From: Alcaligenaceae bacterium 429
Lineage (GTDB): Bacteria > Pseudomonadota > Gammaproteobacteria > Burkholderiales > Burkholderiaceae_B
Assembly: GCA_004791645.1 (NCBI GenBank)
Contig: SRSN01000001.1
Coordinates: 1-48,099 of the forward strand
Length of the DNA stretch: 48,099 bases
Direction: 5' to 3'
Part shown: positions 36,825-41,868 of the stretch, one piece after another
Position numbering within the stretch: position 1 is the first letter of the stretch
Layout of the letters: each line of letters opens with the position of its first letter
Notes under the pieces: model-generated
The model's input: only the letters and a program-made list of their open reading frames with translations
Database searches by the model: none
What the model was told of the DNA's origin: nothing
Made by a program: the position numbers and the translations under genes

Positions 36825-36900
36825 GCCGGCTTAGCTCAGTTGGTAGAGCAGCGCACTTGTAATGCGAAGGTCGAGGGTTCAACTCCTTTAGCCGGCACCA
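36825..36900 (+). tRNA. tRNA-Thr (anticodon UGU)
   Basis: A 76-base cloverleaf with encoded CCA end. The acceptor stem GCCGGCT pairs with AGCCGGC, the D-arm GCTC pairs with GAGC, the anticodon loop CTTGTAA carries TGT at 36858-36860 (reads ACA/ACG threonine codons), and the T-arm contains TTCAA. The anticodon stem has a G-A mismatch at its outer pair and the T-stem has two G-T pairs; neither prevents folding. A terminator follows at 36911. Confidence 0.97.
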
Positions 36901-36910
36901 AGAATAAAGA

Positions 36911-36942
36911 AAACGCCAATCCTTAGGGGTTGGCGTTTTTTT
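36911..36942 (+). terminator. Terminator after tRNA-Thr
   Basis: A stem of nine perfect pairs (36911-36919 with 36930-36938), extended by a wobble and two G-C pairs, is followed by a T run. It also lies just beyond the 3' end of the minus-strand AraC gene and may serve both directions. Confidence 0.88.
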
Positions 36943-36952
36943 GTGCGTGTTT

Positions 36953-38002
36953 TTAATCCTTCAAACCCGCATCTTCTCTGGCCTGCGCTCTATAGTTCTG
37001 CGGCGTAGTCCCCACCCAGTTTTTAAATGCACGAGAAAAGCTTTTCTCGTTCTTAAAGCCGGTCTCAAACGCAATCTGCTTGATAGGCTTGCTGGTTCTG
37101 GCCAAGCATTCCATCGCCTTTTTCTGGCGCACATCGTTTTTCAACTGCTGTATGGAAAAGCCTTCTTCTTGTAGATGACGATACAGTGTGCGCACCGACA
37201 TATGCAGTTTCTCGGCCAGTTCTTCGGCGGTTAAGCCCAAATCGTTATGCAGCTGTTTGCGTATGCCTTGCACCAATAACTTGTCGCGCCGGTAAGGCAG
37301 CACGGTTAACAAGATGGCTTGGCGCAGCATGCTTTGCAGCATAGCTTCATCGCGTAACAACGGCAGTTGTAGGTAACGAGCGTCGAAATGCATAGCCGAC
37401 TGACCAGCGTTAAAACTGGTTTGGCCTGAAAATAAACGCGGATAGATTTCAGCGTGATCGGGCTTATCAAAGGCAAACATCACATCTTGTAGCTGTATGC
37501 GTGAATCAATAAGCCAACAAGCGTAGCCCAACATGTATCGGAACAAGGTGACATGGCAGAACTCGCGCATCTCACCCAGATCGCGGTTTTCTTGCAGGCT
37601 AATGGTTGCCACGTTACTGGACACATCTAGGCTTAAGATCACATCGTCAGTCAGTAGGCGGTGATGCCTGCACCAGCGTTTTAGGGCAATACCCAAATCG
37701 GGTGAGCTCAATGACGCCCTACACAGCATGCCGTAGCTACCCCACGGCAACTTCCTAGAAAACCACCCCAAGGCTTCGTCGTCTAGCTCTTGCATAGCAA
37801 GTGCCGACATTTGTTCCATTTGAGTGGCGGTGACCCGCGCTTTAGCATCCAACAACAGCTTGGGTGGAATCTGCGCTTTACGTAAGGCACTGGCAGGATC
37901 CATGCCATATTTTTGATACGCCAGCACCATAGCCTTGATGAAGGCTATAGGCGTAGTGGCCTTCTTTCCAAACAATAACGGCAAACTGTGTATAACTGTC
38001 AT
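36953..38002 (-). CDS. AraC-family transcriptional regulator, likely of leucine/isovalerate catabolism
   Basis: This is a 349-residue regulator. The N-terminal part (about 20-210) resembles the arabinose-binding-like domain of the OruR/ArgR-type AraC group (AFIKAMVLAYQKYGMDPASALRKAQIPP). The C-terminal double helix-turn-helix (about 250-345) contains GLTAEELAEKLHMSVRTLYRHLQEEGFSIQQLKNDVRQKKAMECL and IKQIAFETGFKNEKSFSRAFKNWVGTTPQNYR. ATG 38002 has a very strong GAGGAGG upstream, so the longer frame to 38089 is rejected. It is divergent from the liu genes with 252 bases between, which makes it their probable activator; the inducer is not known. Confidence 0.88.
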   Translation of the reverse strand: MTVIHSLPLLFGKKATTPIAFIKAMVLAYQKYGMDPASALRKAQIPPKLLLDAKARVTATQMEQMSALAMQELDDEALGWFSRKLPWGSYGMLCRASLSSPDLGIALKRWCRHHRLLTDDVILSLDVSSNVATISLQENRDLGEMREFCHVTLFRYMLGYACWLIDSRIQLQDVMFAFDKPDHAEIYPRLFSGQTSFNAGQSAMHFDARYLQLPLLRDEAMLQSMLRQAILLTVLPYRRDKLLVQGIRKQLHNDLGLTAEELAEKLHMSVRTLYRHLQEEGFSIQQLKNDVRQKKAMECLARTSKPIKQIAFETGFKNEKSFSRAFKNWVGTTPQNYRAQAREDAGLKD

Positions 38003-38141
38003 AGGTGCCTCCTCTACACCACGGCGTAAACCACTATACAGAGTGGCAGTATTTGCAACCTTTTTGGCATGACCAGACCCACCGGCCACCTTATTATCAA
38101 TTCATCACCATACCCATTCAAGATCAACTATACGTATTGCA

Positions 38142-38161
38142 CTCACTACTCATACAGTGAG
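38142..38161. promoter_or_regulatory. Inverted repeat CTCACT/AGTGAG in the AraC-liuA intergenic region
   Basis: Perfect 6-bp arms (38142-38147 and 38156-38161) with eight bases between, about 94 bases before liuA. Another inverted repeat, CCACT/AGTGG, is at 38031-38046 close to the regulator gene. Either may be a regulator site; neither is proven. Confidence 0.3.
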
Positions 38162-38175
38162 GCAACAGAGACAGC

Positions 38176-38203
38176 TCAGCACAGGCTTACCCTCCTGTGC
38201 TGA
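38176..38203 (+). promoter_or_regulatory. Leader hairpin upstream of liuA
   Basis: TCAGCACAGG and CCTGTGCTGA form a perfect 10-bp stem with an eight-base loop, 51 bases before the liuA start. No T run follows, so it is not a terminator. It could stabilise the mRNA, act as an operator, or mask something in the leader. A second hairpin, ACACCT/AGGTGT (38227-38242), covers the only good ribosome-binding sequence. Confidence 0.45.
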
Positions 38204-38244
38204 CACCAATCACCAACAGGAGCATGACACCTGCAAAGGTGTAC

Positions 38245-38274
38245 ATGAAAAGCCATGAGTATTTCAGGCCTTAA
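38245..38274 (+). CDS. Possible nine-codon leader ORF overlapping liuA
   Basis: An ATG at 38245 follows AAAGGTG at close spacing and encodes MKSHEYFRP before a TAA inside liuA. The liuA ATG (38255) lies in another frame ten bases later and has no well-spaced ribosome-binding sequence of its own. The tiny frame might deliver ribosomes to liuA by coupling. It is purely a sequence observation and may be chance. Confidence 0.25.
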
Positions 38275-39427
38275 TTTCTTTCTTGGCGACACCATTGAAA
38301 TGCTGCAAGAGACTGTACGGTCTTTCGCGGCCAAAGAGATCGCCCCTCGTGCTGCTGACATAGATAGGGATAACGAATTCCCAGCCGACCTCTGGCAGAA
38401 AATGGGTGATCTAGGCCTATTGGGCATCACCAGTTCTGAAGAGTACGGCGGCACCGATGCCGGTTACTTAGCCCATATTATTGTGATGGAAGAGCTTTCA
38501 CGTGCCTCGGCCTCGGTAGCTCTATCATACGGCGCACACTCTAACTTGTGTGTAAACCAAATCACTCGCCACGGCACTGCCGAACAAAAAGCCAAATATT
38601 TGCCAGGTCTTATTTCTGGTGAGCATATAGGCGCTCTGGCCATGTCCGAGCCTAACGCAGGTTCTGACGTCGTATCCATGAAGCTGCGTGCCGAGAAGAA
38701 GGGCGATAAGTTCGTACTGAATGGCAGCAAAATGTGGATCACCAACGGTGGCGATGCCGATACCTTGGTGGTGTACGCCAAAACCGACCCCGCTGCCGGC
38801 GCTAAAGGTATTACTGCTTTTATCGTAGAAAAAAGCTTTAAAGGTTTTTCTCACGGTACGCATTTGGACAAGCTGGGCATGCGTGGCTCTAACACCTATC
38901 CACTGTTCTTTGATGATTGCGAGATTCCCGAAGAAAACGTGCTAGGTGGTGTGGGCAATGGCGTCAAAGTGTTGATGAGCGGATTGGACTACGAACGCGC
39001 CGTACTGTGCGGTGGCCCACTGGGCATCATGGCCGCATGTATGGATGTGGTCGTGCCCTACATTCACGAGCGCAAACAGTTTGATCAACCTATAGGCCAG
39101 TTCCAACTGATGCAGGGCAAGATTGCTGACATGTACAGCACATGGCAAGCAAACCGTGCCTATGTCTACGCATTGGGTCGTGCCTGTGACTTAAGCAACC
39201 ATAGCCGCACTCTGCGTAAAGATGCTGCAGGCGCTATTTTGTACAGCGCTGAAAAAGCCACCTGGATGGCAGGCGAAGCAATTCAAGTTTTGGGTGGTAA
39301 CGGTTACATCAACGAATACCCCACAGGCCGCCTCTGGCGCGATGCCAAGCTGTATGAAATTGGTGCAGGCACCAGTGAAATCCGACGCATGCTGATTGGC
39401 CGCGAATTGTTTGAAGAAACCCGTTAA
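38255..39427 (+). CDS. liuA: Isovaleryl-CoA dehydrogenase
   Basis: This FAD enzyme oxidises isovaleryl-CoA to 3-methylcrotonyl-CoA in leucine breakdown. The 390-residue product is an acyl-CoA dehydrogenase. The catalytic base is E247 in [17 protein letters not shown], the position specific to isovaleryl-CoA dehydrogenases; most other acyl-CoA dehydrogenases carry it near the C-terminus, where this protein has [17 protein letters not shown]. Other markers are the N-terminal [31 protein letters not shown] and [16 protein letters not shown]. It is first of the liu genes, with liuB 12 bases after it. Confidence 0.95.
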
Positions 39428-39439
39428 GAAGGGGGTTGT

Positions 39440-41047
39440 ATGACCAAACTTACCTCCAAGCTGAACACCCGCTCTGACGAGTTCAAAACCAACGCTGAAA
39501 CCATGCGCACGCTGGTGGATGACTTACGCGCCAAAGCCAAACTGGTGGCCGACGGTTCATCACCCAAAGCGCGTGAAAAACACTTGGCACGCAATAAGCT
39601 GCTACCGCGTGATCGCATTGATCATCTGCTAGACAAAGGTTCGGCCTTTTTGGAAATAGGGCAGCTAGCCGCCTACGGTTTGTACGGCGACGAAGTGCCC
39701 TCTGCCGGCCTTATTGCTGGCATTGGTCGCATCCACGGCACCGAGTGCATGGTGATTGCGAATGACGCCACAGTCAAAGGGGGAACGTATTTCCCCATGA
39801 CGGTGAAAAAGCACCTACGCGCACAAGAAATTGCCGAAAAGAACCACCTACCATGCATTTATTTGGTGGACTCTGGCGGCGCGTTCTTGCCTATGCAAGA
39901 TGAAGTGTTCCCCGATCGTGATCACTTTGGTCGTATTTTCTACAACCAAGCACAAATGTCAGCCAAAGGCATTCCACAGATTGCGGTGGTAATGGGTTCG
40001 TGTACCGCTGGTGGCGCTTATGTGCCTGCGATGTCTGACGAAACCATTATTGTCAAAAACCAGGGCACCATCTTTTTGGCAGGCCCGCCGCTGGTTAAAG
40101 CGGCTACCGGTGAAGTCGTAAGTGCCGAAGATTTGGGTGGTGCTGATGTGCACACACGCATTTCTGGTGTGGCTGACCATTACGCCGAAGACGATGCGCA
40201 CGCCTTATATCTCGCGCGCCGCATTGTGCAGAATTTGAATCGTAAAAAACCGCAGTCGCTAGTGCTACAACCTAGCGAAGAGCCGCTGTACGACCCCGAA
40301 GAAATCTACGGCATTTTGCCTACCGATAACCGCAAACCCTACGATGTACGCGAAGTAATTGCACGCATTGTAGATGGCTCGCGCTTTGACGAATTTAAGG
40401 CGCGCTACGGCAACACCTTAGTCACAGGTTTTGCGCATTTATACGGTCAGCCCGTAGGCATTATTGCCAACAACGGTATTTTGTTCAGTGAGTCTGCACA
40501 AAAGGGTGCGCACTTCATTGAGCTATGCGGCCAGCGCAATATCCCTCTGGTGTTCTTGCAGAACATCAGCGGCTTTATGGTAGGGCGCAAATACGAAAGC
40601 GGCGGTATTGCTAAAGACGGTGCCAAGATGGTGACGGCCGTGAGTACAGTCGCCGTACCCAAAATCACCATGCTGATTGGTGGCTCGTTTGGTGCTGGTA
40701 ACTACGGCATGTGCGGTCGCGCTTATGACCCACGCTTCTTGTGGATGTGGCCAAACAGCCGTATCTCGGTGATGGGCGGCGAGCAAGCAGCCAGTGTGCT
40801 GTCTACCATCCGTCGCGATCAGTTAGAAGCCAAAGGCGAAAACTGGAGCACTGACGACGAGGCGCAATTCAAAGCTCCCTTGTTGCAGCAATATGAGCAC
40901 CAAGGCCACCCCTATTATTCCAGCGCCCGCCTATGGGACGACGGCATTGTAGATCCTGCACAAAGCCGCCGTATTTTGGGGTTGTCGCTATCTGCTTCCC
41001 TAAACGCCCCCATAGAACCCACCAAATTTGGTCTGTTCAGAATGTAA
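39440..41047 (+). CDS. liuB: Methylcrotonyl-CoA carboxylase, carboxyltransferase (beta) subunit
   Basis: It transfers the carboxyl group from biotin to 3-methylcrotonyl-CoA, giving 3-methylglutaconyl-CoA, together with the LiuD subunit. The 535-residue carboxyltransferase has crotonase-like halves. Markers are [41 protein letters not shown], the acyl-CoA region [27 protein letters not shown], and later [27 protein letters not shown] and [20 protein letters not shown]. These distinguish it from propionyl-CoA carboxylase. It lies between liuA and liuC; GGGGG precedes the ATG. Confidence 0.95.
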
Positions 41048-41070
41048 ACGCGCCACTATCAAGAGGTGTA

Positions 41071-41868
41071 ATGATGTTTAGCTTTCTTGAGATTACCCAA
41101 CACGCTGGTGTCGCGACCGTCTGGATGAATAGACCGGAGCTGCACAACGCGTTTAATGCCCAGCTGATTCACGAGCTGTACACCGCTTTTCAGCAACTGG
41201 ATAACGATGCTGAGGTACGTGCTGTAGTCTTAGCCGCCAGAGGTAAAAGCTTTTCAGCCGGTGCTGATTTGAACTGGATGAAAAGTGCCGTCAATGCCAG
41301 CCAGCAAGACAACCACAACGATGCGTTGGCGCTGTCTAACATGCTGCACACGTTGGCGACGCTACGTAAACCTACCATTGCCCGTGTACAAGGCGCGGCA
41401 ATTGGTGGAGGCATGGGCCTAGTCAGCGCTTGCGATATTTGCGTTGCTGCTGACACCGCTAAATTTGCTACGTCTGAAGTCAAACTAGGGCTGATTCCTA
41501 GTGTGATTAGCCCCTATGTGATTCGTGCTATTGGGCCTCGCCAAGCCCACCGCTATTTCCTAACAGCAGAGATGATTCCTGCTACTACCGCACTGGCGAT
41601 TGGGCTTGCCCATGAGGTAGTACCCGCCGACCAACTGGATGACAAAATCAACACGCTACTTGCTGCCCTGCAAGCCGGTGGCCCAGAGGCCCAAGCAGCA
41701 TCCAAAGCGTTGATTCAGTCGGTGAGTTACAGACCCATAGACCAGAGCTTGCTAGAGCTCTGCGCCCGCAACATTGCTGAACTGCGTACCGGCAGCGAAG
41801 CTCAGGAAGGCATGGCTGCCTTCCTTGCCAGACGTGCGCCTCAATGGCTGCACAGCAAGGAGTCCTAA
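41071..41868 (+). CDS. liuC: Methylglutaconyl-CoA hydratase (enoyl-CoA hydratase/isomerase family)
   Basis: It hydrates 3-methylglutaconyl-CoA to HMG-CoA. The 265-residue crotonase-fold protein has the oxyanion-hole sequences FSAGADLNWMK and GAAIGGGMGLVSACDICVA, and the segment KLGLIPSVISPYVIRAIGPRQAHRYFLTAE typical of the leucine-pathway hydratase. ATG 41071 has AAGAGGT upstream (a second ATG follows at once); the longer frame inside liuB is rejected. It lies 23 bases after liuB and liuD starts one base after its stop. Confidence 0.92.
   Translation: MMFSFLEITQHAGVATVWMNRPELHNAFNAQLIHELYTAFQQLDNDAEVRAVVLAARGKSFSAGADLNWMKSAVNASQQDNHNDALALSNMLHTLATLRKPTIARVQGAAIGGGMGLVSACDICVAADTAKFATSEVKLGLIPSVISPYVIRAIGPRQAHRYFLTAEMIPATTALAIGLAHEVVPADQLDDKINTLLAALQAGGPEAQAASKALIQSVSYRPIDQSLLELCARNIAELRTGSEAQEGMAAFLARRAPQWLHSKES

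Follow-up and report, generated by a model that had tools for sequence, protein, structure and literature searches.

A hairpin predicted to bring a distant Shine-Dalgarno sequence close to the liuA start codon in an Alcaligenaceae bacterium

What directs ribosomes to the start codon of liuA in Alcaligenaceae bacterium 429, where the Shine-Dalgarno-like sequence AGGAG lies 32 nt ahead of the ATG? The question concerns a stretch of 48,099 nt (contig SRSN01000001.1; hereafter the window, whose numbering we use, with features on the forward strand unless stated otherwise) that contains a liu operon for leucine/isovalerate breakdown. Its first gene, liuA (38255–39427), is an open reading frame with Pfam acyl-CoA dehydrogenase domains, of the isovaleryl-CoA type, and its start codon aligns with the starts in relatives; the operon products are an acyl-CoA dehydrogenase, a carboxyl transferase, an enoyl-CoA hydratase, a biotin carboxylase with an MCC-alpha domain and an acyl-CoA ligase. 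About 250 bp separate liuA from a divergent AraC-type regulator gene on the reverse strand (36953–38002; Arabinose_bd and HTH_18 domains), for which ATG 38002 is the likely start. Between a tRNA gene (36825–36897) and the 3' end of this regulator gene, a 10-bp stem with a T run after it (36910–36939) is likely a terminator. LiuA shares 84–85% identity with its best named matches, mostly from Rhodocyclaceae, and just 68–74% with the proteins of seven genus mates (L028–L034), and only 3 of the 268 genomes of the family, the window counted, have a match to the regulator at E 1e-60 or better; judged by these comparisons, the liu block looks like an outside acquisition or replacement.

The region next to the regulator gene offers a candidate promoter. 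Homologues of the regulator (46–61% identity) are present at 24 of the 80 named liuA loci; 23 of these carry a TGCAACC core, preceded by a GGC half-site, upstream of liuA, and 19 have another TGGC after the core; the second TGGC is absent from four Bradyrhizobium loci, and one locus whose regulator is non-adjacent (L052) lacks both the core with its half-site and the second TGGC. By motif comparison, the TGGC direct repeat of the window (38044 and 38065, with TTTGCAACC between; 38044–38068) is a likely AraC-type operator. It is directly followed by a predicted promoter (38069–38097) made up of ATGACC, 17 nt and TATTAT, which scored 9/12 in a consensus scan that also gave one further promoter-like site on the opposite strand. 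The -10-like TATTAT occupies 38092–38097, and a TANNNT hexamer exactly 23 nt past the second half-site is shared by 18 of the 24 named relatives (17 by script and L055 by eye, as the script had chosen a later site there; the L055 operator was also located by eye). The six exceptions are L044, L052 and the four Bradyrhizobium loci; the Bradyrhizobium loci have a similar hexamer displaced by one base. From this arrangement we infer that liuA transcription starts at about 38104, upstream of all hairpins described below, and that the promoter is probably under AraC control. A start downstream of 38242, named in an earlier note on this DNA as a point that would speak against a structured leader, is unlikely given the predicted -10-like site and the spacing to the AraC-like site common to those 18 relatives. 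No terminator or attenuator was found by a scan of 37990–38300.

The predicted liuA leader contains three hairpins of 10 bp each. P1 (38137–38165, -11.2 kcal/mol) pairs TTGC-A-CTCACT with AGTGAG-GCAA; the earlier note had seen its CTCACT/AGTGAG repeat, which extends through TTGC/GCAA, with a bulged A, to the full 10 bp. P2 (38176–38203, -16.3 kcal/mol) pairs TCAGCACAGG with CCTGTGCTGA around an 8-nt loop and is the perfect 10-bp hairpin reported there. The third hairpin, P3 (38223–38247, -11.7 kcal/mol), contains the ACACCT/AGGTGT stem of that note (38227–38242) as its inner part and is extended by CATG/CATG; the whole hairpin, CATG.ACACCT-GCAA-AGGTGT.A.CATG, has a GCAA loop and one bulged A and comprises 25 nt, and two of its pairs that we sampled have a probability above 0.99. 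As a whole, the leader folds better than shuffled versions of itself (z -4.46, with 0 of 200 as good), and the same holds for that of the one relative with an orthologous leader (z -3.45, with 1 of 200 as good). A candidate switch was considered in which CTCCTGT (38192–38198, in the loop and 3' arm of P2), fully complementary to ACAGGAG (38216–38222), would act as an anti-Shine-Dalgarno sequence; it was dropped because the stretch differs in the relative and the full pairing is lost in the alignment.

It is the placement of P3 that bears on our question. P3 begins at the base that directly follows AGGAG (38218–38222) and terminates exactly 7 nt before the liuA ATG, from which it is separated by the spacer AAAAGCC (38248–38254), identical in the relative. 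The distance from AGGAG to the ATG is thus 32 nt along the linear sequence and 7 nt with P3 in its predicted fold. We propose AGGAG as the Shine-Dalgarno sequence of liuA on account of its pairing with the 16S tail and the Shine-Dalgarno cores present in relatives. With the 3' end of the tail taken from the organism's own genome, AGGAG pairs with -6.6 kcal/mol, about equal to the -6.5 kcal/mol of AAAGG (38235–38239) within P3, and is weaker than the Zoogloea site (-9.8 kcal/mol). The view that liuA is without a well-spaced binding site had overlooked AGGAG, which comes to lie 7 nt from the ATG once P3 is folded. AAAGG had been put forward as the best ribosome-binding sequence, buried in a hairpin; its AGG is indeed paired in P3, but the rank of best is doubtful as AGGAG does about equally well. 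Ahead of AGGAG, an A/C-rich stretch (38204–38217), which may serve as a ribosome landing strip, forms no hairpin of its own, is partly paired with coding sequence in the folds of lowest energy and shows one change in the relative, at its first base.

We favour, with a probability of roughly 60%, a model in which translation of liuA begins from a split initiation region that resembles those of phage T4 genes 25 and 38 and is active when P3 is folded. Ribosomes would bind at AGGAG, and the folded P3 would be looped out, so that its 25 nt no longer count and the effective distance to the ATG would be 7 instead of 32 nt. With P3 unfolded, AGGAG would be out of range. For this to operate, the RNA would have to fold in the cell as predicted and AGGAG would have to be the site in use; any regulation of these steps is likewise conjectural.

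How often such an arrangement arises by chance can be gauged in several ways, the tests having been devised after the hairpin was noticed, so that their figures are descriptive. Of 300,000 shuffles of the 32-nt gap, 6 produced a gap-filling hairpin with 10 bp or more. A scan for AGGAG followed by a hairpin of 8 bp or more, 5–9 nt and ATG returned this locus alone, in the two species. With looser Shine-Dalgarno cores, the scan gave 11 rows at any ATG, of which 7 belong to frames of at least 100 codons; across the 6055 ATGs of such frames (1.27 Mb, both strands counted), a 10-bp hairpin stood in position only at liuA of the two species, and one other start had a 9-bp hairpin. The latter belongs to an Accumulibacter thioesterase gene that precedes liuA (L090, 1981–2022), where a 9-bp palindrome is situated between AGGA and the ATG. 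This palindrome is possibly an operator or a second split start; owing to its weak Shine-Dalgarno sequence (AGGA), the resemblance of the palindrome to a regulator site and a further in-frame ATG, we do not count it in favour of bridging.

If P3 sets the spacing in the window, what do relatives do without it? In each of the 24 named loci that have a homologue of the regulator, a Shine-Dalgarno core is located 4–9 nt from the liuA start, the start being taken as the nearest in-frame start codon (shifted upstream by 3–9 nt in five loci) and the count covering these loci as distinct from the other 56, which have no homologue in the stretch. Four genus mates with a different liuA (L028–L031) have GGAG 6–7 nt ahead of the start. 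By sequence, the ordinary form is a Shine-Dalgarno core plus 4–9 nt, and that of the window is AGGAG plus a 25-nt hairpin plus 7 nt. The ordinary form leaves no room for P3, which thus appears to have been inserted into a site of that form.

The structured leader itself is narrowly distributed. The sole relative found with an orthologous leader (G010) belongs to the same genus, at 88% DNA identity; its leader folds like that of the window into P1, P2, P3 and a weak P4, and its P3 is identical but for the bulged base. In a DNA search of 268 family genomes, 8 had matches, of which only the window and G010 matched over the leader, the other six giving pieces of 20–76 nt (E 0.001–0.004). A model for leader searches (R1) matched 2 of 11 genomes in the genus, 7 of 268 in the family at E up to 1 (the five extra matches, at E 0.04–0.43, are taken as chance) and 1 of 399 in an order sample that excludes G010; a P3 pattern with up to 3 mismatches also matched 1 of these 399. 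There was no further convincing leader match in the 268 family genomes and the order sample, and a plasmid search gave zero matches. One genome (G231) has a homologue of the regulator, with the adjacent liu leader absent. In Rfam searches of the whole window only a tRNA reached the gathering score, and 38080–38330 gave six sub-threshold matches (E 1.9–6.6). A repeat element was considered and rejected: against the own genome, 38000–38400 matched itself and one 33-nt piece of liuA coding sequence (query 367–399), and R1 at E up to 10 found nothing there besides itself. The conservation of the stems among relatives, on which the earlier note had made its idea depend, holds in one relative, with compensatory changes in P1 and P2, and in that one only.

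Compared with the relative, P1 shows two double changes that preserve pairing and zero broken pairs, P2 three such changes and one broken pair; in total, 5 of 20 pairs are changed on both sides and still pair, and 1 of 20 is broken. When the observed 11 changes were placed randomly in the stems, at least 5 double changes with at most one break occurred in 1 of 400,000 trials, and sliding the partner columns by 1–3 left zero double changes. A column-shuffle control was as high in 19 of 500 shuffles, a weak result that is probably due to two sequences permitting few distinct shuffles; the covariation as a whole rests on two species. The DNA that contains P1 and P2 is more variable than average (identity 0.73–0.83 per 40-base step, with a mean of 0.83), which would also suit a mutational origin. 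Template switching copies one arm of a quasi-palindrome onto the other and could produce paired changes in the absence of selection on RNA. As a local control, we scanned the aligned 30 kb for perfectly paired stems of 8 bp or longer and obtained 20 rows, P2 included (P1 is missing from this list as its bulge divides it); since one stem was duplicated in both alignment blocks, the 19 remaining rows represent 18 other stems. All of these have either zero or one double change, and broken pairs occur in 10 of the 19 rows. Template switching would moreover be silent on P3, and we regard it as improbable. We suppose instead that P1 and P2 are selected RNA structures, which may contribute to mRNA stability or keep access to the binding site free.

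If mRNA stability were the whole purpose, the hairpins would be real RNA structures protecting the 5' end of the message, with no part in start choice, and liuA would have a weak start independent of a Shine-Dalgarno sequence at its A-rich spacer. P1 and P2 covary although they are far from the start, which is in line with such a role, as is a long inverted repeat in the liuA leaders of two other relatives, Xenophilus aerolatus (L071) and L072 (2343–2483; arms of 63 and 69 nt), which sits between a promoter-like site and an intact binding site. The exact fit of P3 between AGGAG and a normal 7-nt spacer is left unexplained by protection alone, and we consider it unlikely as the full account. 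Still less can be said for the hairpins as DNA operators, bound by a repressor or by the AraC-type protein. P3 does include a 16-bp palindrome, and the L090 thioesterase gene is preceded by an operator-like palindrome in the same place; but the genome shows no clear excess of the P3 palindrome (21 sites, compared with 18 for a backward control, at one mismatch or fewer), the AraC-like operator is located elsewhere, and the sequences of P1 and P2 have shifted with pairing kept, which a binding site would not need. This makes an operator role very improbable.

A further possibility is that P3 conceals a site rather than bridging to one. An out-of-frame mini-ORF overlaps liuA (38224–38274), with nine codons from ATG 38245, as the earlier note had it, to TAA 38274, and 16 codons from ATG 38224, from which the frame is also open. 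Both ATGs and the AGG of AAAGG lie inside P3, with an unpaired probability of at most 0.02, and bridging and translation of the mini-ORF are therefore alternatives. P3 might then be a sequestering hairpin, with AAAGG serving a mini-ORF that controls liuA by coupling or competition, and with its opening turning liuA on. AAAGG is placed 5 nt before ATG 38245 with its AGG paired, the mini-ORF is open in both species, and its stop at 38274 is near enough to the liuA start for reinitiation to be conceivable. On the other hand, 15 nt separate AAAGG from the liuA ATG, AGGAG is placed exactly where P3 would bridge, and in named relatives the binding site is directly ahead of liuA. The mini-ORF differs between the two species by one substitution, which is non-synonymous (Tyr to Cys) and falls on the unpaired bulge of P3: the pairing is kept in the relative, the peptide is not. 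A coding role of the mini-ORF is thus unsupported, and we hold sequestration to be distinctly unlikely. That P3 conceals the binding site of liuA finds no support; it hides the site and start of the mini-ORF, and AGGAG stays outside, at 7 nt from the liuA ATG when P3 is folded. On the preferred model of a split start, the folded P3 would conceal the AGG and ATG of the mini-ORF, and unfolding would expose this start to compete with liuA. What stands of the earlier proposal of translational control is a structure at the level of translation below a probable AraC promoter, with a predicted transcription start upstream and covarying P1 and P2.

Several observations speak against bridging. In fragments of about 160 nt from both species, the lowest-energy fold pairs AGGAG with the coding sequence, and in a longer fold its middle two G's are mostly paired with nearby bases (unpaired probabilities 0.12 and 0.10). 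A weak hairpin, P4 (38252–38269, -5.1 kcal/mol), takes up the UG of the liuA start codon in its pairs and folds alike in the relative. P3 is invariant between the two species and so shows zero covariation; and as gene-junction regions rank among the best conserved stretches of the species pair, its near-perfect conservation alone proves little. In the first 18 codons of liuA one codon is changed, compared with 40% overall, as would fit a constrained start region, though other gene junctions of the block are equally conserved. The 80-base stretch of the liu region with the highest conservation against G010 (100%) is 41037–41116, where the carboxyl transferase gene ends and the following gene probably has its start region.

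Should P3 open and close under control, it would be a two-way switch that gives AGGAG to liuA when folded and, when opened, exposes the mini-ORF start and turns liuA off; P1 and P2 would sense or stabilise the choice. The opening might be brought about by heat, a helicase or a binding protein. We find this extension doubtful; if true, it would be a chromosomal, regulated split site of the T4 type and the reverse of usual RNA thermometers. If bridging itself is real, gene finders and models of translation rate that rely on linear spacing would misjudge such genes, and liuA would offer a small natural test case for which relatives with the ordinary arrangement are available.

Among known systems, Shine-Dalgarno-sequestering hairpins and RNA thermometers have a hairpin in the initiation region that hides a Shine-Dalgarno-like sequence. 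P3 resembles them in hiding AAAGG, but the hidden site is that of the mini-ORF, and opening of P3 should lower liuA translation. In fact, the Shine-Dalgarno sequence proposed for liuA is not paired in P3: AGGAG lies outside, and AAAGG, 15 nt from the ATG, is partly paired. In E. coli thrS, as far as the excerpted text of PMC3936740 goes, the ribosome accommodates a folded hairpin in its binding region, as predicted for liuA; the thrS hairpin is situated between the Shine-Dalgarno/AUG region and an upstream landing strip, whereas P3 is between the Shine-Dalgarno sequence and the AUG. Among the matches listed from the open-access literature, no bacterial chromosomal gene with a hairpin in the latter position was found. 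The closest likeness is to phage T4, for which the excerpted text of PMC3014915 describes structures between Shine-Dalgarno sequence and AUG that shorten the distance from 22 to 5 nt in gene 38 and from 27 to 11 nt in gene 25, with improved translation. As in these genes, the linear gap of liuA is too long (32 nt) and a predicted hairpin within it would restore a functional spacing (7 nt). The gene 25 arrangement is, according to the same text (PMC3014915), restricted to close T-even phages; similarly, the liuA structure is found in the close relative G010 only, with ordinary spacing in 24 of 24 named relatives. In that account the T4 cases are phage genes tested by mutation and probing, whereas liuA heads a chromosomal catabolic operon and is known by sequence prediction; unlike them, it has a probable AraC promoter, two extra covarying hairpins and a mini-ORF start inside the bridging hairpin. 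At the level of sequence features, the liuA start matches split initiation of the T4 gene 25/38 type.
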